A stretch of 40,279 nt of DNA from Deltaproteobacteria bacterium (GTDB taxonomy: Bacteria; Desulfobacterota; Desulfarculia; Adiutricales; Adiutricaceae): NCBI GenBank assembly GCA_031264185.1, contig JAISEL010000075.1:1-40279 (forward strand), written 5' to 3'. Below the pieces are notes generated by a model. The model saw nothing but the letters and a program-made list of their open reading frames with translations. It ran no database searches and had not been told where the DNA came from. A program made the position numbers and the translations under genes. This document shows positions 1,000 through 19,083 of this stretch, piece after piece (the first letter of the stretch is position 1; the number at the start of each line of letters is the position of its first letter).

Positions 1000-3267
1000 T
1001 CATTCATCGGTGGTCTTATTTTCAGCAGCGTCATCTCCCGATCCGGGTTCAGCCTCATCCTGGGCCTGAGCTGGAATCTCGCTCAAGGAATTCTGGTCTT
1101 CGTCTTTCAAAGCTCCAGTCCCAGCTTCAAGTTTAGTCTTTGCCTCAGCTTTAAGCTTAACCCTACTTTTTTTTCTGGCTTCTTTTATTTTCGAAATAAG
1201 CTCAGGATTCTCGAAATAATCACGGTACAGTTCCTGCCTGTTTTCTAAGTCAAGCTTAGAGGCAACATCATCAACTTTGAGGCCATCTTCAAAGAGTTTT
1301 AAAGCTTTTTCTCTAATTTCCTCCTTAGTGGCTTGATCAAGATTCTTGGTCTTGGTTTTTTTTCCAGAGCCAGCTTTTTTAACAGATTTAACGGGCTCTT
1401 TCGGGACAGACTCCTCCCAAACTGCCGACGAGCCATCCTCCGAGAAATTCAATCTAAGTTCAAAATGTTGTCTTTGTTCAGCAGCAGCGTATCTGGCTTT
1501 GGTGAATTTTACTACAAAATTAGTACCTTTACTGCCTTTCACGGCTTCTAAGGCAATTACTGCATCAGCATTGTCCTCTTTAGCATTGGATCCACGTTGA
1601 TCGCCTTTTTTCCCAGCATGATGAACAAAAATAATGCTTGTACCAAGTTTTTTTAATTCTTGAAACCAATTATTGATTGGCACCCACGATAAAGGATCGT
1701 TGCCAAGCGAACTACTAGCTAAAGACGCTAAATTATCTATAAAAATAATATCAATACGCTCTTTTAGAATTTTATCATAAATATATTTCTGAAAATTTTT
1801 ATCTAATAAATCAATATTCTTGTTTTGAGCAATATTTAGACAAACAATAAATTTACCATTATTATTGATGTTATTATCTTTTATATTTAATAATCTCATC
1901 CTTTCTTGCATTTTTGAGTTAATAAGCTCCCCCTCAATATAAAGAACATTCTTAGGCGGAGAGACCATCCAGTCTGATTTTTGGAACGGACAGCTGCCTT
2001 CACTGAAGGCTTTGGCCAACTCAAGACAAAACCAGCTCTTTCCGACTCCTCTGTCTGAAAAAACTTCCATTATTCCTGGCTGGGGCAAAATTCCGGGAAT
2101 AATGTCAGGGGTTTCTTGGAACTCTGTTTCTAAAAAAGTCTTTGCTGAGTAACAAATAAGCTCAATTTCCTGTTCTTTAGTGTCTTCCAAGGTAAGATTG
2201 AAATATTTTTTAGCGAAATTAACAAATTGTTTTCTGTCAATTATCGGATACCTATAAAGGATTTCATTACTGGATGTTCTGTCCAATGCTTCATCAAAGA
2301 AGAGCCAAAATTTGAAACTAGAGGGGCGATAAGCATTAACAGAGCGATAGGTTTCATAGGCCAACCTGCATGATTCAGAAGTATTATAAACCGGAAAAAT
2401 AATATTCCTGTCCCTCAATCCAGACCAATCAACTTTTCCAACAGTATTATATTCTCCGCCAGGCCAGCTAACAGTCAAATACGGGTTTATATTGTTGTTT
2501 TTTAAGAAACAATTATTCAAATCATCACATTTTTCTTCATTATCAACAATTATTACGTTTTTTTCCGGGAAAGAATAAAGTCCTAAAATATTATAAATAG
2601 GATATGGTTCAGTAAAAAAAGATCTTTCAATTTTAATATATTTATTAGGCTGAGAATAATCTATTGGTCTCTGTAAAAGAATCGCCAATTTGCTATTATC
2701 TGCATATTCTACAGTAATTTTTCTAATGTATTGAACAAACACTATATTTAATAAATAATCAGAATTGTCTTTATAAGAGACAACAATTCCTCGTATACTA
2801 CCATCAAGATTCCTATATACAAAATATTTATGAATACTATATTCTATTTTATAACTATTAATACTTAAATGAATATATTCATCCACAATAGTTAATATAT
2901 TTTGTTGGTGGTATTCTGGAATATCATTATAAACCATAATATCACTTTTTTTCATTGAAATTCCAAAAAAATCAGCGAAACTCCTATAACTATATTCTTC
3001 TTTAATCGCTTTTATAGATGTATATAAGTCAATTAAATTCCTACCGGACTCTCGGTTTGAATTTTTCGTCCAACTTAAATCACGAGAGATATTATAATCA
3101 TGCCTCATAAATTCAAGTCTATTCGGTGTTTCATCGTCTAATGGCAACATTTTTCTTATATAAGAGACATAATTAGCTACAGAAATCCGCTCAATATATT
3201 CATATTCTATCATATCAGATAAATATTGTATCTTTTCTTTCGTATTATAATTTTTTATGTCATCCAT
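1000..3267 (-). CDS. RepA/DnaB-like AAA helicase with N-terminal degenerate TOPRIM primase region
   Basis: 755 residues. The C-terminal half is a RecA-fold ATPase of the AAA_25/RepA kind: Walker A SDRGVGKS at 404-411, Walker B IDIIFIDN at 505-512, and HH at 549-550 followed by an RGS motif. Residues about 148-320 align by eye with the TOPRIM region found ahead of such ATPases in phage- and island-type primase-helicases: VYRNLDGSIRGIVV matches their YRDADGxxxGYVxRF block, then comes VIIVDNEEK, SWPGGEYNTVGKVDWSGL, and a strand at 288-296. The usual VVEGEK is VDNEEK and the usual aspartate pair (WPDAD-like) is replaced by FPVYNTSE, so primase catalysis looks lost. The Lys/Glu-rich tail (about 625-755) is predicted disordered. 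The gene is strongly AT-rich and lies 69 bp downstream of the integrase on the same strand. It most likely replicates or maintains the element; the exact role is inferred. Confidence 0.8.
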   Translation of the reverse strand: MDDIKNYNTKEKIQYLSDMIEYEYIERISVANYVSYIRKMLPLDDETPNRLEFMRHDYNISRDLSWTKNSNRESGRNLIDLYTSIKAIKEEYSYRSFADFFGISMKKSDIMVYNDIPEYHQQNILTIVDEYIHLSINSYKIEYSIHKYFVYRNLDGSIRGIVVSYKDNSDYLLNIVFVQYIRKITVEYADNSKLAILLQRPIDYSQPNKYIKIERSFFTEPYPIYNILGLYSFPEKNVIIVDNEEKCDDLNNCFLKNNNINPYLTVSWPGGEYNTVGKVDWSGLRDRNIIFPVYNTSESCRLAYETYRSVNAYRPSSFKFWLFFDEALDRTSSNEILYRYPIIDRKQFVNFAKKYFNLTLEDTKEQEIELICYSAKTFLETEFQETPDIIPGILPQPGIMEVFSDRGVGKSWFCLELAKAFSEGSCPFQKSDWMVSPPKNVLYIEGELINSKMQERMRLLNIKDNNINNNGKFIVCLNIAQNKNIDLLDKNFQKYIYDKILKERIDIIFIDNLASLASSSLGNDPLSWVPINNWFQELKKLGTSIIFVHHAGKKGDQRGSNAKEDNADAVIALEAVKGSKGTNFVVKFTKARYAAAEQRQHFELRLNFSEDGSSAVWEESVPKEPVKSVKKAGSGKKTKTKNLDQATKEEIREKALKLFEDGLKVDDVASKLDLENRQELYRDYFENPELISKIKEARKKSRVKLKAEAKTKLEAGTGALKDEDQNSLSEIPAQAQDEAEPGSGDDAAENKTTDE

Positions 3268-3336
3268 AATTAGCTAACTTACTGATTTAACGGAAAATCT
3301 ATTTCCCATTGTAAATAAAAAATAATATCAACACCA

Positions 3337-5433
3337 TTAAATAATTGGATTAATATATTTAGAATTCTTTAAATGAGATAAATCAATGCCATAGTCAAGC
3401 TTTTCAATAACTGTCTGCAATTTTACTGGAGGAAATGGGCTTCCGTAGCGTTTTTTAGATAATTTAATAAGAGTATGGCCAAATATTTGAGTAAAAACAT
3501 CGTTTTGCAAATCATTTTGCTTATAAAAATCTGCAAATGTATGTCGTAAAGAATGAAAAGACTTCTTTTCAGCTGAAAAACCTGGCTTATTAAGTGTGCC
3601 TTTAATTAAAGCTGCAAATTGTTTGCCTGGTTGTTTCCCAAATTGAACTGTTTTGTCTGTCCGATTTAACTCAGGAAATAAACGAATACTCTTTTTCTCA
3701 GATAAATATTTATGGTATTCAATAAAACCTAAATTTATTAATGTGCTATGTATAGGAATTAAACGTATAGAACTACTAGTTTTTACTGACTTAATATTTT
3801 CTTGAGAATCATTATTCTTTTCATTAATATCAATAATCCAAATATTATCTTCCATATATATATCGCCTATATGTAATTGAGCGATTTCTTCAAGCCTCAT
3901 TCCAGTAAAAAGGCCAATCAAAGGCAACCAAAAATAAGCAGGAAACTTAAAAAGTCCTTCAGTATATTTAGGATGAGAAAAAATTAATTTTAGATCTTCA
4001 TTGCTAAAAGGAAATTTGTCATTAATTTCTTGGCTATTATCTTTAATTTGCAGCCCTTTAGCGGGATTTTCAGAAATTAACTGTTCATTTTTGCACCAAT
4101 CAAGCAAACTAGAGACACATTGAACAAGAAAATTAACTCGCTTCGCGGTCAGCACTCCAGGGTGATTCATTTTCAAAAGTTCTGAAATTGATTTGCCTTC
4201 AAATTTTTTGTTTGCGCGAGAAAAATTAGGCGGCAATTTTGCCAGCGTATCTCTATATCTCCTGACGCAAGCTCTGTCAATTTGATCTAATCGTATATCA
4301 CCTATAACAGATATAAACATTTCAAGATCAGATTTATGGGAAGAAATTTGGTTCTCTTTCCATTTTTTCGCGTCTATTTTGTCCTTGACAAAACGAACAA
4401 CCGCCTCAGAATAAGAGATGGATTGAGGCTTTTTAGCTACACTGTCATTTAAAATATTCGTAAGTTTGCTAATATCTTCAAAATTAACTAGTGCTCCAGA
4501 ATTAATATCCTGATTTTGTCTGTTAGATAAATTATTAATTACAAGATTTTTAATATCTTTAAGGTCAGTTGATATGTTTTTAAGATCAGAATCATAGTCA
4601 AATTCTGGTTTTGTTGTCGATTTGTTTTCCCCGCGACTTAGGCTGTAATCAATATCGGCCAAGGCATCCTGAATAGATTTATTACTTTTAATCATTTCAG
4701 CATATCGGTCCATTACATTTTGATTAGCTGGAGTTAAATATTTTATACACTCATTAACATCTAAAAGCTCAGTAATAAAATTTTTTGGCTTACTGTTATC
4801 TGTTAAGGTAAAATTATCTTCATAAGAAAAGTCGCCTTCAGCCCTTTTCGCTAAAATAGAATGGAATTTTATTTCAGATTCCAAAAAGAATTTAGTTACA
4901 ATTAATTTGTCCTCTTCCGGCGCCAGTTCGTTAAAACGCGAATCAATAATGCCAGCTGTTATAAGAGATGGAATAGCAATATCGGACCAGGAACGCAAGG
5001 ACTTTTCGTCTTTTATATCAGACACTAAATTCTTTACGATATATTGACAAGCTTCAGTATAATTATACTCAGGATGCACTGATTCAACGTCTTCAAAAAG
5101 CGCAGATGACTTACGGGGGGTTAAATCTCTGGAATCTTCTTCCAACTTCATGCTGATATGCTGATTAAGTCTGCGTTTCAGCTCGTTTAAGTCCATGTTA
5201 GGGGCATCCATCATTTCCTGTATAATGGCGAATATCAGTCCCGCAAGTTCCAGAGCTTTCCGGCGGAAGGGAGTTCTGAGGCTCAGCCTAATCTCTTGGC
5301 CCAGCCTGGATTTCAGATCTTCGGGGAAGGCCAGCCGAAAATAATAAAAATCCCCCCGCTTATAGACGTGCGACGGCCCACGGACCGATTTTTTGAATCG
5401 GCAGGAAGGCGGATCTGACGATGACATTTTCAT
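3337..5433 (-). CDS. Tyrosine recombinase / phage-type integrase
   Basis: About 698 residues from the ATG at 5433. An in-frame TTG at 5514 would add 27 residues, but they translate the 12-bp repeats upstream, so I prefer the ATG. The N-terminus (KRGDFYYFRLAFPEDL) is the DUF6538-like start typical of this integrase group. The core-binding domain is at about 340-460. The catalytic domain shows Arg in GMRLEEIAQL (about 513), a Lys-bearing beta-hairpin near 550, HSLRHTF (about 627-633), FGH (about 653) and the nucleophile in KKRYG (about 663). All five catalytic positions appear present, so the enzyme is probably active. It is longer than usual (400-500) because of an AT-rich insert between residues about 90 and 340. 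It stands about 140 bp from the 3' end of tRNA-Leu, the usual site for such elements. Confidence 0.9.
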   Translation of the reverse strand: MKMSSSDPPSCRFKKSVRGPSHVYKRGDFYYFRLAFPEDLKSRLGQEIRLSLRTPFRRKALELAGLIFAIIQEMMDAPNMDLNELKRRLNQHISMKLEEDSRDLTPRKSSALFEDVESVHPEYNYTEACQYIVKNLVSDIKDEKSLRSWSDIAIPSLITAGIIDSRFNELAPEEDKLIVTKFFLESEIKFHSILAKRAEGDFSYEDNFTLTDNSKPKNFITELLDVNECIKYLTPANQNVMDRYAEMIKSNKSIQDALADIDYSLSRGENKSTTKPEFDYDSDLKNISTDLKDIKNLVINNLSNRQNQDINSGALVNFEDISKLTNILNDSVAKKPQSISYSEAVVRFVKDKIDAKKWKENQISSHKSDLEMFISVIGDIRLDQIDRACVRRYRDTLAKLPPNFSRANKKFEGKSISELLKMNHPGVLTAKRVNFLVQCVSSLLDWCKNEQLISENPAKGLQIKDNSQEINDKFPFSNEDLKLIFSHPKYTEGLFKFPAYFWLPLIGLFTGMRLEEIAQLHIGDIYMEDNIWIIDINEKNNDSQENIKSVKTSSSIRLIPIHSTLINLGFIEYHKYLSEKKSIRLFPELNRTDKTVQFGKQPGKQFAALIKGTLNKPGFSAEKKSFHSLRHTFADFYKQNDLQNDVFTQIFGHTLIKLSKKRYGSPFPPVKLQTVIEKLDYGIDLSHLKNSKYINPII

Positions 5434-5459
5434 GGCTGCCACGACCCCCAAAAGGAGTT

Positions 5460-5484
5460 TTTTGGCACACACTTTTGGCACACA
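5460..5484 (-). repeat. Two 12-bp direct repeats upstream of the integrase
   Basis: TTTTGGCACACA occurs at 5460-5471 and again at 5473-5484, a 13-bp period, just upstream of the integrase ATG. Read toward the gene it is TGTGTGCCAAAA. Position and spacing suit recombinase arm sites or an autoregulatory operator. This is inference; no binding site of this sequence is known to me for this family. Confidence 0.5.
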
Positions 5485-5574
5485 GGCCAAAAACGGGCCT
5501 CGCGGTAAGGTCAACTGGTCGTCAAATCCGAAAAGCTAAGTAATTGTAATCACTTAACTTTTATTTTTTACAGG

Positions 5575-5694: not shown

Positions 5695-5773
5695 TGGGGT
5701 GGGTAATGGGACTTGAACCCACGGCCTCCAGGGCCACAACCTGGCGCTCTAACCAAACTGAGCTACACCCACC
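5695..5773 (-). tRNA. tRNA-His (anticodon GTG)
   Basis: A minus-strand cloverleaf begins GGTGGGTGTAGCTC with the extra G at -1 typical of tRNA-His. The anticodon loop TTGTGGC lies in stem CCAGG/CCTGG, and discriminator C plus CCA are encoded. It lies 33 bp upstream of tRNA-Leu on the same strand, so the two probably share a transcript. Confidence 0.95.
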
Positions 5774-6230
5774 GTCTTTTTTTAAAATAATAGCAGAAAA
5801 AGGATACAAACTCAAACTATAAATAGTTGATTTTGTTATACCATAACCATTAAAAAATATAGTTACATCGATAATAATCTCAATAATAAAAATCTTTTTA
5901 AGGCTGTTAACAGGTATTTAGGCTGACAAAAAGCTTAAATTACCTGTAAACTACTCTCTGGCCGCTTTTTTCTTTCGGCCATTCAAAAAAAGCTTGTTAA
6001 AAATAATGTGAGGTTGCCTAACCCTCCGTTTGCGCCTTCATTTAATACTCCTTAATCTAAAATTAGTCAAGAAAATTTTTAGAGTTTGAAATGGAGAAAT
6101 TTTACCTTCCCTTTTATGTTTGACTTAATCGGGCTGGTTACATTTTTGGTGGTTCTCTTTCTTATCCTCTGACTTTTTTTAGGAGGTGAGGTGGATCTAC
6201 TATGAATGGGATAAAGAGGACCATATAGGA
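5774..6230. other. AT-rich gap with an isolated strong Shine-Dalgarno site
   Basis: No gene is evident. On the plus strand AGGAGGTGAGG at about 6181-6191 leads to an ATG at 6201, but the frame stops after eight codons (MNGIKRTI), before the decayed defence cassette. It may be the severed start of a gene lost when the cassette inserted or decayed, or chance. Confidence 0.4.
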
Positions 6231-6976
6231 TCACAAATCTTTGCGCGTATTAATATTATTATCATACAAAAGTATATCCCTAATTATTTCAAATATAGGT
6301 ACAAATGATTCAAAATCAATGCTATCGAATAGTGCTTGGCGGGAAGCGATTTTTTCAGCGAAATACTTCTTAGATAGAGCGATATTGGTGGTGCTGCCTT
6401 TTTCGGCTTTATAGACATCCTCATCAATTATTTTCATTTTACTATCGCCACATTTATTGCTACTTTTCTTTCCGAAACGAATGCCGTTACCCATTCCTGT
6501 GCAGTCAAGCTTGTCCCCCATATACAGGCACCTATTGTCGCCCTCTGGACACAGGACTTCGCTTTTGATAACTTCATAAGAGTAAAAGTGTTCAATACAT
6601 ATACCAACGGCGTTTGGTCACGAATTATAGGAACAGGCAGGACGAACGAGTATACCTTTGAATAAGGTGCTTCGCCGTGAACCCGGCAACGTTCTGCTGT
6701 GGTATTTCCTTCAGTACCGGACGAAACGGCGGCTAAATCTTTCGTAATAGCTGGCTTATCTGCATCAGCGATAAATATCACAATATTGTCACGCTTTATC
6801 TTTGACGTGTTTTTGCAAAGTGAAACCAATTTTACATCAAAAAAATCAATATCCATTCGTGGTGCTTTTCAACAGAACGCAAATATGAGTATGCCGCTTT
6901 TAAGTGTATCCAGTCAGTTTTTCTTTTCGGTTACAATAAGCGTCTTGCTCTTTGATGCTGTAATCTTTGAAGACAT
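6231..6976 (-). pseudogene. Frameshifted TOPRIM nuclease-like gene paired with an ATPase
   Basis: The start ATG at 6976 overlaps the stop of the upstream ATPase relic (TAATG), so the two were translationally coupled. Frame 1 reads MSSKITASKSKTLIVTE and then stops. Shifting frame restores KTDWIHLKAAYSYLRS, then DIDFFDVKLVSL, then DNIVIFIADADKPAITK, later IEHFYSYEVIKSE, and finally a GDKLDCTGMGNGIRFGKK to FVPIFEIIRDI tail. The order TEG-K-TD followed by IADAD is the TOPRIM Glu-Gly and Asp-x-Asp pattern. At least three frame breaks are needed, one of them inside the catalytic TEGK motif. Intact relatives accompany AAA ATPases in OLD-like or PARIS-like defence pairs. I recognise the arrangement, not a specific named family. 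Confidence 0.75.
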
Positions 6977-7478
6977 TACTGCTTGATATTTCTGAGTTGC
7001 TGCAAAATATTCATACGCCTTTTAAAATTCTGAAAACATTTCTCTCCAATTTTTCCGCCTTCTGGCATTTGAATTAATTCATAGCCATCAGTACCGCACG
7101 CCTCTTCCATTCCAAGTATAAACAGGGGTGAGTGATAAGTAATGATGAACTGAACTTTTGGAAACCGCTTAATGGGTTTTGGTAATATATCCCTTTGTAA
7201 ACTGCTGTATAAATGTAGTCCAACTTCATCTATGACTACAATACCAGAAATGTCGTCTAGTTTAATACTCTTGAGCATATTGTTGTAATCAGCATAGCGA
7301 ATTATTGTGACGAAAATAATAATAATAATGCCATTCGCCCAGTAGAAAGCGAATCAAAAGTCGGAACAACTATATTGCCTGTTTCTTTTTCGATTACCCT
7401 AAAGCGACCTGACGCTTTTACATTGCGCATATTTAATTCAAAGCAGACTGACTTTCCAATTATTATCTGACAAGAACA
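6976..7478 (-). pseudogene. AAA ATPase (OLD/SMC-like) remnant lacking its N-terminus
   Basis: Frame pieces give FELNMRNVKASGRFRVIEK, then PTFDSLSTGRMALLLL, and after a frame break in a run of TTA triplets (about 7309-7325) FVTIIRYAD, ISGIVVIDEVGLHLYSSLQ and KVQFIITYHSPLFILGMEEA. STGRMAL is in the ABC signature position, IVVIDE is Walker B with the catalytic Glu, and TYHSP is the switch His. The Walker A half of the gene is missing; directly upstream lies a methyltransferase stub, so a deletion has fused the two. The downstream TOPRIM gene overlaps it by TAATG. Confidence 0.8.
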
Positions 7479-7480
7479 GC

Positions 7481-7558
7481 TCAGATAATATTAAAATCCG
7501 CAAGGAGAAAGTCAAGATTAAATTCTCCTGCGCCTGCAAACAAGTCCAAAATATTCAT
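7481..7558 (-). pseudogene. Stub of a DNA (cytosine-5) methyltransferase
   Basis: From the ATG at 7558 the frame reads MNILDLFAGAGEFNLD, then a DFNII segment and a TGA stop after 25 codons. This is the invariant start of C5-cytosine DNA methyltransferases: the DLFAGxGG SAM-binding motif I followed by GF-x-V-I. Here the second motif Gly is Glu. The PCQ, ENV and target-recognition parts are absent. It begins 8 bp after the XRE relic stop on the same strand and is cut off at the ATPase relic, so a deletion of roughly the whole methyltransferase plus half the ATPase is the simplest reading. Confidence 0.72.
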
Positions 7559-7566
7559 CACTACCC

Positions 7567-7796
7567 TTACCCCATGATAAAACTATGTTTATCCAGTTCA
7601 GTAATAATTTCTTCAGATAACGCCTTAAAAAAAATAGTCCTTAATTTGGACAGCTGCGAGACGGCCCGGCTTTGAACCCCCGTTTTCCCAACGGTTAACC
7701 GTTGTAAAGCTTACGCTTAGTTCGTTCGTGGGCAAGTGTTTCCTGAGATATATCAAGTTCCTTGCGTATGGCCTTTACTATTTCGGAAATCGTCAT
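7567..7796 (-). pseudogene. XRE-family helix-turn-helix regulator, frameshifted
   Basis: The ATG at 7796 has a strong GGAGGT site 7 bp upstream. The frame reads MTISEIVKAIRKELDISQ, then ETLAHE, and breaks at a tandem GAAC duplication (GTTCGTTC, 7720-7727). Dropping one GAAC restores LSVSFTTVNRWENGGSKPGRLA, a classic Cro/C1-type recognition helix. A second break is a T-run of 8 near 7627-7635, where 7 would continue into KALSEEIITELDKHSFIMG. The reconstructed protein is about 74 residues. It heads the methyltransferase-ATPase-TOPRIM ruin and was presumably its controller, as in many restriction-modification operons. Confidence 0.75.
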
Positions 7797-7982
7797 AAGC
7801 ACCTCCATTAAGTTAATTATAGCAAGCTATCATGAGATGCAGTATAATTTTTTTACTTCACCATTATATGGAAAGCTGGGGCTTTAGAGCGATTCCACCT
7901 TTTCCTCCAGCCATAAAACAAATCCGAATCCCTCGCTCACCGGATAAATCAGCGAACGGTTGGGGTTCGGATTGACGAAGTC

Positions 7983-8075
7983 TGGCGGAGAGAGAGGGAT
8001 TCGAACCCTCGGTGGAGTTATAAGCCCCACACACGATTTCCAATCGTGCTCCTTCAGCCACTCGGACATCTCTCC
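7983..8075 (-). tRNA. tRNA-Ser (anticodon GGA)
   Basis: A 93-nt class II cloverleaf on the minus strand begins GGAGAGATGTCCGAGTGG and ends in encoded CCA. Anticodon stem CACGA/TCGTG encloses TTGGAAA, giving GGA. The long variable arm and the GGTTCGAATCC T arm are clear. It lies about 70 bp downstream of the VCBS gene and forms the right border of the decayed cassette region. Confidence 0.95.
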
Positions 8076-13953: not shown

Positions 13954-14273
13954 TATATTTTTATCTGATTTAAGCTAAAATAGTCTAAATCATCTTGATC
14001 TTTTCTGACGGTTGTTTTTCTTTCCGAATGACCTCTAAAGAAGTCGGATAAAAAAGGCACTAATCAGACTGCCAGTTCCACATCTTCATAGTTTAAAGAA
14101 ATATTAGCCGTTAATCTTTCTAAACTGCCTGTATTCCAGGGTTCTATCCGCTCGTCAGCCAATCAGTAAAGAGTTGTAATTCTTAAATAACTTCCCAATA
14201 AAGACAGGCGCAGGAGAGCTGGTTGACAAATGTCAAAAGCAGAAGCGTAAAAAAAACATTAGAGATGCTTTTG

Positions 14274-14776
14274 GCCGGAGAATTAGCGTCGGTCATTTTT
14301 TAATGAAAGGCTGATTTGTTTAAAATAACAATTTGACCGGACAATTCGAGGTCATAGAAATAATGTCTTCTACATAGTAAACGGCAATTTGAGTGATTTA
14401 AAGACAAAATATGCTTATAAAAATAACTTCAAGAATCAATGTACTATCCAGCGCTGGAAAATTTGTCACATATATTTTTCGGACAGTTCGTCGTATACCT
14501 GTTCAATTTAGCCGAATAGCTCGGCAGGGGGCAATTTCAGTCCGCCAAAAACACCCGGAAAAACTGACCAGATATTATAAATTCAGGGATTGAAAAATTG
14601 TCCTTTTTCCCCTTAATCAAATCGTATGCCTAAAATGGCCTTGAAGTAAAAACAATTAAATATATTAAAATCAAGGTGTTACTATCATAATTATTATTTC
14701 AAACTGTCATGAGTTTCTCTGGCTTCAACCCTGAGTCATGAATAATGCTTTAGCTGGTATGTTTCACGGTTCCCCT
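14274..14776 (+). repeat. Long non-coding direct repeat, copy 1
   Basis: About 500 bp that recur at 14837-15330 in the same orientation. Both copies begin GCCGGAGAATTAGCGTCGG and share GGAAAATTTGTCACATAT and GGGATTGAAAAATTGTCC. Identity is roughly 80% with small indels. Open frames are not conserved between copies, since stops fall at different places, so this is more likely RNA, a repeat unit or a relic than a gene. Confidence 0.8.
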
Positions 14777-14836
14777 ATATCGTGAAAAATAGGTTAGTCG
14801 GCATGTTTCACGGTAAAATCCATTTGAAGGGTTGTT

Positions 14837-15330
14837 GCCGGAGAATTAGCGTCGGTCATTTTTTAATCAAAGGCTGATTCATTTTAAAATAACAATTTGA
14901 CCGGACAATTCAAAACTGTAGAAATAATGTCTTTTACATAGTAACCAGCAATTTGAGTAATTTAATGACAAAATATATTTATAAAAATACCTTCAAGAAT
15001 AAATGTACTATCCAACGCTGGAAAATTTGTCACATATATTTTTTTGAACCGTCTGGCGTCTACCTGTCCGATTTAGCCGAATTGCTCAGTCGGTGTCAAT
15101 CTAAGCAGACCAAAAACACTCGGAAAAAATGATCAGTATTTTTGGATTCAGGGATTGAAAAATTGTCCTGTTTCTCCTTAATTAAATAGTAAGCTGAAAT
15201 TGACTTTAAGACAAAAACTGAAAAAATTTATTAAAATCAAGATGTTACATTACTCCAAACTGTCATTAGTACCTCTGGTTTCACCCCAGGTCTTGAAAAA
15301 CATTTTGGCTGATATATTTCTCGGTAAACT
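14837..15330 (+). repeat. Long non-coding direct repeat, copy 2
   Basis: Second copy of the block at 14274-14776, offset by 563 bp. It ends near CTGATATATTTCTCGGTAAA, matching CTGGTATGTTTCACGGT of copy 1. The ~60 bp between copies hold a further TTTCACGGT and an inverted CGTGAAA. Confidence 0.8.
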
Positions 15331-18013: not shown

Positions 18014-19083
18014 ATGGCTGGACAATACATCGTTGACAGGGATGTTGTATCATATTCCCACTCAATATGTGAGGCAAATGATAAGTCAGTTACTCAAGTC
18101 AAGAAAAGCCTCTGCGCCCTGTTGGGTGATGAGGCTAGGTTGGACGTTAACACCATTGCCAAAGTCCTTCAAATTGACAAGAGGACAGTTTTTCGTTACA
18201 GGGCCTATATGGAAGCGTTAGCCAGAAGAATATTGTCCCTAAAAAAAGCGGCTGGGGTGGGCGGCGATATGGACTCATGACCGAAGACGAGGAGGTTTCA
18301 CTTTGGAACCTTGGAATACGATTGCTCTCTCGGGTGAATTAGTAAGCATTAATGGAATTCATGCAGCACATGTGGAAGCTGCAGGCAGAGAGATATCTCT
18401 GTCTGCGACTTATAGGATGCTAAGGCGCCATGGATGGAGAAAAGTAAAACCAGATGCCAGGCATCCAAAAAGCGATCTGGCAGCTCAAGAGGAGTTTAAA
18501 AAAAATTCAAAGATTTTTTGTGGATGCCGTCCTTAATAAAAACGAAAAAGGACTCCCATTCAGGTTGATGTTTCAAGATGAGGCTTGATTTGGGCGGATG
18601 TCCCAACCTAAATCCTGCTGGGCTCCACATCCTGCAAGACCAATGGTTACGTTGGCCTTGGTTCGGGAATTCAGGTACATCTATGCTGCTGTCAGCCCTT
18701 GGGATGGCAGACTCTGTTATTCAATCACTGAAAAGATGAATACAGAGAATATGAATCTCCATTTATCCCAAGTTTCAAAACGGTTTCGAAATTCTTTCAG
18801 CATTATAATTTTCGATGGTGCGCCTTCAAATAGGAGTCATAATTTGATTGTTCCTAAAAATATTGGATTGATCCAGTTTCCTCCTTATAGCCCTGAGTTG
18901 AATCCTGTCGAGCAGATCTGGAGACTATTAAGAGGAAAATATTATGCTAATAGATCATTTAATACTTTAAGTGAAGCAATTTCTCAAGCTGATAAAGGAT
19001 TATGTGAAGTTGCTTCAGACAAAAAAGCTATTTCGAGGCTAACAAATTGGCCTTGTATAAGTGACATCTTGAACGCTTACTAG
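18014..19083 (+). pseudogene. IS630-family transposase, broken
   Basis: An ATG with AGGAGGAT upstream starts a helix-turn-helix N-terminus (DVNTIAKVLQIDKRTVFRYR). The frame then breaks near 18270-18300; LEPWNTIALSGEL, TYRMLRRHGWRKVKPD follow in another frame. A second break comes near 18515, and the restored frame reads FVDAVLNKNEKGLPFRLMF then QDEA. A TGA stands where IS630 proteins have Arg (QDEARFG). The last part holds FDGAPSNRSH and QFPPYSPELNPVEQIWRLL, the typical IS630/Tc1 DDE segment with the second Asp and the final Glu. At least two frameshifts plus one stop make it inactive. Terminal inverted repeats and TA duplications were not found with confidence. Confidence 0.9.

Follow-up and report, generated by a model that had tools for sequence, protein, structure and literature searches.

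What filled the spacer between the tRNA-Ser and tRNA-His genes of this deltaproteobacterium, and what might it have done when it was intact? The window, the whole stretch of 40,279 nucleotides that was analysed, carries between these two genes several broken coding sequences, which an earlier note had read as a decayed antiphage-type cassette at 6231-7796. Both tRNA flanks are confirmed and the coordinates are correct, though the entire insertion is larger (5773-7982), and the four co-oriented pieces, a regulator, a methyltransferase stub, an ATPase and a TOPRIM domain, do follow one another in that order on the minus strand (7796-6261). We consider the region probably a recently dead antiphage insertion, in which the remnant of an XRE-controlled C5-methyltransferase restriction-modification system is followed by a fused gene for a PtuA-like ATPase and an Ec67-type TOPRIM, with a presumed abortive function. 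The insertion site comprises the following features.

7983-8075, minus strand: tRNA-Ser (gga), one boundary of the insertion site
5773-7982, no strand: the whole insertion, filling the tRNA-Ser/tRNA-His spacer
5695-5772, minus strand: tRNA-His (gtg), the other boundary of the insertion site

The spacer is 2.2 kb long in the relic-bearing genome and only 16-29 nt in three congeners (16, 17 and about 22-29 nt), and therefore we regard it as an insertion hotspot. The gap measures 4.8 kb and contains a Fic gene in the congener L168, and it holds 0.54 kb of other DNA in the congener L170. We looked for direct repeats clearly marking the attachment ends of the insertion and found none. Among the 297 genomes of the phylum, the relic-bearing genome alone gave TOPRIM matches, and the relic was most likely acquired laterally. 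An Rfam scan of the window returned tRNAs only, the coverage of retron RNAs in Rfam being incomplete.

Other traces of mobile DNA were seen in the same window and genome. Next to tRNA-Leu, at 1000-5514, are encoded a DUF6538/tyrosine integrase (725 aa) and an AAA_25 protein (755 aa), which likely form a mobile element; at the same site, L170 has a fragment resembling such an integrase. A direct repeat of about 500 nt (14269-15325, spacing about 564, parts 75-90% identical) lies in AT-rich DNA without ORFs longer than 100 aa. The DDE_3 transposase fragment at 18598-19083 is similar to one beside a second broken C5-methyltransferase of the same genome (L143, G000 C148:39628-40354), which has internal stops and a transposase-like remnant nearby.

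Within the insertion, we distinguished five features, described here with reference to the closest intact homologue of the ATPase-TOPRIM part, the single 699-aa protein L048.

7567-7796, minus strand: XRE-family HTH regulator relic of about 75 aa (HTH_3, E=3.5e-10)
7484-7558, minus strand: first 25 codons of a C5-cytosine DNA methyltransferase (MNILDLFAGAGEF...; PF00145 positions 1-25, E=0.042)
7463-7484, minus strand: deletion junction, at which the methyltransferase 5' end meets mid-gene ATPase-TOPRIM sequence and solid L048 homology begins at residue 276
6960-7463, minus strand: C-terminal half of a PtuA-like ABC ATPase, with signature LSTG, Walker B and switch His, and with Walker A missing
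6261-6960, minus strand: Ec67/Eco2-type TOPRIM of the same gene as the ATPase, in which the catalytic positions (Glu, Asp, DxD, IE and Lys) can still be made out

The XRE relic starts at 7796, preceded by a TATAAT-like box and by GGAGGT as ribosome site, and runs to a stop codon at 7567-7569 through two lesions, a tandem duplication of GAACGAAC at 7720-7727 and, near 7630, a frameshift in a stretch of eight T. It is 54% identical to the XRE protein at the head of an Acetoanaerobium operon in which the last gene is Dcm, and XRE relatives head Dcm-containing loci elsewhere (L152, L125), which backs the earlier suggestion that the XRE and Dcm pieces are remnants of a restriction-modification system. 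Eight nucleotides past the XRE stop codon, an ATG at 7558 opens MNILDLFAGAGEFNLDFLLADFNII, and this methyltransferase stub ends in a TGA at 7481-7483, where the homology changes. Motif I is present at its N-terminus, and its peptide found twelve plasmid matches, most of them annotated cytosine methyltransferases with the match starting from query residue 1. Between 7484 and the ATPase part there was no match to motif IV (PPCQ), the target domain or a cognate endonuclease.

The stub could in principle be a chance resemblance, with 7484-7558 merely being more of the ATPase gene, since a frameshift-tolerant alignment with L048 can be extended through it. Of five genuine Dcm proteins, the three that the peptide matched best gave scores of 46-49, about 6 s.d. 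above its shuffles (26.6 +/- 3.5), and the homologous ATPase stretch gave only 16-18; this contrast and the position of its ATG directly behind the XRE stop codon leave that reading a very slim chance. A genuine methyltransferase 5' end joined to the middle of another gene thus remains our reading of the stub. The join had been taken for a deletion that removed two or more kilobases, and this holds, the missing length included; about 275 N-terminal residues of the ATPase and the rest of the methyltransferase are gone.

The ATPase and TOPRIM pieces are the remains of one fused gene. The relic matches L048 with E=1.1e-50, 3.9e-40 and 2.4e-35, values that chance would not produce, and the frameshift-aware alignment contains 261 identities in 414 aligned codons (about 60% identical), the first few codons running into the methyltransferase stub and not representing homology. 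It covers L048 residues 276-686 and is continuous from the ATPase into the TOPRIM, with no break. The Walker B motif (VVIDE) and the switch His (in ITYHSP), both recognised earlier, are indeed in the ATPase part. The last ~410 codons (~7463-6261) have suffered six frameshifts, three in the ATPase part (near 7461, 7306 and 7043) and three in the TOPRIM part (near 6922, 6857 and 6600), as well as one in-frame stop, the TAA at 7022, which stands opposite a Gln of L048. The earlier note had proposed a separate TOPRIM gene coupled to the ATPase by TAATG. This proposal fails because intact homologues are single ORFs and the alignment reads through unbroken; the TAATG is in the wrong frame, after the -1 shift at ~7043, and both this TAATG and the division into two genes stem from frameshifts.

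Frameshifts could also arise from assembly or homopolymer errors in a gene that is still alive. The codon-position pattern of substitutions is indeed still coding-like and one of the shifts falls in a run of eight T, yet six shifts and an in-frame stop are crowded into ~1.2 kb while the flanking genes (445 and 725 aa) are intact, and the L048-homologous first 275 residues, including Walker A, are absent both at the locus and elsewhere in the genome. A living gene behind sequencing errors is thus barely credible, and a single intact gene at the locus is unlikely given the deletion and the intact flanking genes. The gene is dead on our reading: with Walker A gone and the frame broken, this copy cannot work. 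Substitutions between the relic and L048 by codon position (0.26/0.16/0.60) are distributed much as those between the intact L049 and L048 (0.23/0.20/0.58), and therefore most of the divergence arose under selection, predating death. The inactivation is, judging from this pattern, recent relative to the divergence from L048.

To which family did the gene belong? The relic ATPase matches the PtuA profiles of NCBIfam (8.9e-15) and PADLOC (3.5e-20), and for the modelled ATPase part, with Foldseek also run, PtuA structures match best (Z 25.6, rmsd 3.7 for 311 residues). The relic TOPRIM matches the PADLOC profile RT-Toprim_I-C (1.4e-18) over the whole domain, as intact relatives do. None of the TOPRIM models in Pfam matched at E 0.01, and a Foldseek search with the TOPRIM modelled in isolation brought no significant match (best E 0.05), so that the assignment of this fold rests on sequence and motifs. 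In Retron-Eco2, an enzyme with RNase activity, the active site consists of E374, D378, D460/D462, S513/E515 and K562 (PMC12405507). The TEGKTD block of the relic family aligns directly with Eco2 E374/D378, whereas the other TOPRIM positions correspond by their order. By sequence, the relic family is closest to a PtuA-type ATPase combined with an Ec67/Eco2-type TOPRIM, with no reverse transcriptase. An OLD/PARIS-like effector had been suggested for the pair, but the PtuA and RT-Toprim_I-C profiles match closer than OLD or PARIS.

The top TOPRIM match is thus a retron model, and the ATPase resembles the ATPase of type I-A retrons, which could suggest that the gene is a leftover retron effector, its reverse transcriptase lost in the deletion. 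But type I-C retrons fuse the reverse transcriptase to the TOPRIM itself, a place held here by the ATPase, and a motif scan found no other reverse transcriptase-like gene at most intact loci, the few motif matches being kilobases off. We consider a lost retron very improbable.

Intact relatives were found by alignment-based scans in viral contigs and at 73 loci in genomes. About 50 TOPRIM loci are ATPase-TOPRIM fusions, as classified by motif, and the intact homologues are single ORFs of about 609-699 aa (667 aa in L051). The TOPRIM used as a single protein query gave no match in viral contigs, and the plasmid and phage collections yielded one match each, to an RT-TOPRIM and an unannotated contig; NF041760 was unspecific across the phylum, matching 278 of the 297 genomes. 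A tree built from 76 TOPRIM domains places the relic together with L048 and L049 (support 100/100), two relatives on contigs from MAGs labelled Bacteroides and Clostridiaceae. Across 28 intact proteins, the ATP-binding positions are invariant (Walker A N38/G39/G41/K42, signature S315/G317, Walker B D353-E354, switch H385), as are the TOPRIM positions E454, D458, D519xD521, E576 and K650. The gene also occurs on phage contigs (L010-L012), next to what is presumably a P2-type portal gene, on our own reading without a profile match.

The Ec67-type TOPRIM was also observed in other protein contexts. Its fusion partners are reverse transcriptases (L088, L096), response-regulator receivers (L090, L097), DNA methylases (L102, L116; the methylase of L102 by Pfam), Schlafen AlbA_2 (L104) and, in a protein of 1600 residues, a Sacsin-like domain (L108). 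One clade (L087, L093, L098, L101, L107 and L112) consists of proteins of ~500 aa with a central TOPRIM between N- and C-terminal parts that have no assignment, of which L093 has no Pfam match.

Was the fused gene once part of the restriction-modification system beside it? The earlier note had pictured a restriction-modification module combined with an ATPase-TOPRIM pair in a single operon. The combination itself does occur elsewhere. In the HpaII-type locus L071, the order is M.HpaII-R.HpaII-84 aa-[ATPase-TOPRIM gene], and five type I loci, as a raw count, carry the gene (L067, L073, L074, L076 and L078). In L073 (3278-12036) and in L076, whose layout was taken from its near-identity to L073, the genes are nearly touching in the order hsdM-rhuM-hsdS-[ATPase-TOPRIM]-hsdR; the gene order of the PrrC locus is hsdS-prrC-hsdR. 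The ATPase-TOPRIM gene follows hsdS in L074 and L078 and hsdR in L067. The particular operon XRE-Dcm-ATPase-TOPRIM was not recovered: among 35 intact ATPase-TOPRIM loci, only one has a Dcm-type gene nearby and none an XRE-motif gene, nor did any show a relic-type XRE beside Dcm and ATPase-TOPRIM. No restriction-modification genes were present on the contigs of the four closest homologues, three of which are shorter than 5 kb.

Alternatively, an XRE-Dcm restriction-modification locus and a solitary ATPase-TOPRIM gene might have entered the spacer side by side as unrelated defence insertions, with only the later deletion joining them. The cargo of the spacer does vary among congeners (the Fic gene in L168, other DNA in L170), the other 34 of the 35 intact loci lack a nearby Dcm-type gene, and the closest homologues have none either. 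Against this, the pieces all share one strand and their order would suit an operon, and six intact loci have the ATPase-TOPRIM gene inside or beside restriction-modification genes. We rate two separate insertions as a serious contender, somewhat short of an even chance. With the methyltransferase/ATPase join being a deletion, it is plausible, though not proven, that all pieces once formed a single operon, and we infer the original link between methyltransferase and ATPase-TOPRIM gene from order and strand only.

As for function, the intact ATPase part might have sensed infection, or the failure of a linked restriction-modification system, and would then have released the TOPRIM nuclease. The released TOPRIM would cut host RNA, possibly tRNA by analogy with PtuAB, PARIS and PrrC, and this cutting would stop phage growth with the host cell being sacrificed. 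RNA as the target is suggested by the likeness to Eco2. Given its fusions to other sensor domains, the Ec67-type TOPRIM looks like a portable effector. A more speculative extension is that ATPase-TOPRIM fusions act as suicide RNases inside type I and HpaII-type operons, silenced by the intact restriction enzyme and freed when a phage inhibits it, which would amount to PrrC-like control of a retron-type nuclease that has no reverse transcriptase. We hold this extension to be possible but doubtful. Taken alone, the relic is nothing unusual for a dead defence gene at a tRNA hotspot, but it leads to a family that is intact and widespread elsewhere and whose nuclease, known from a well-studied retron, would be driven by an ABC ATPase in place of a reverse transcriptase. 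The placement between hsdS and hsdR makes the guarding of such nucleases by restriction-modification, beyond PrrC, directly testable.

Several known systems share parts of this design. PrrC in EcoprrI is described in PMC2610378 as an ABC-ATPase tRNase linked to type I restriction-modification and silenced by the restriction enzyme. It resembles the gene of L073 and L076 as an ABC-ATPase RNase in a type I locus, whereas its nuclease domain is not a TOPRIM, and guarding by restriction-modification belongs to PrrC and is only proposed for the ATPase-TOPRIM family. OLD class 1 proteins are likewise encoded by single genes with an N-terminal ABC ATPase and a C-terminal TOPRIM and are phage-borne too, yet the relic sequence is nearer to PtuA and Ec67 and the match to OLD among solved structures is only marginal (E=0.0027). 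PARIS (AriA/AriB, fused AriAB) also combines an ABC ATPase, AriA being a weaker match, with a TOPRIM nuclease, but the relic TOPRIM is of the Ec67 type, the match to the AriAB model lay mostly in the ATPase, and Pfam scans gave no match to the AriB-type DUF4435. HEC-04, which limits T4 and T5, and IbfA, which limits UAB_Phi20, are single ABC ATPase and TOPRIM proteins (PMC12111858). They are alike by architecture, whereas IbfA is shorter (518 aa) and HEC-04 was not among the best 25 PADLOC matches. PtuA of Septu and of type I-A retrons (Ec78/Ec83) is the best sequence and structure match for the ATPase domain, but it pairs with a separate HNH nuclease, PtuB, a family that was absent among the neighbour genes of those loci scanned, while the relic family has its TOPRIM nuclease fused. 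Retron-Eco2 (Ec67, type I-C RT-TOPRIM) is homologous over the whole TOPRIM, with PADLOC E-values down to 4.7e-40 (the intact P0002) and with TEGKTD and DxD motifs common to both, whereas the intact homologues have in place of the reverse transcriptase an ABC ATPase that carries the Walker A, signature and Walker B motifs.
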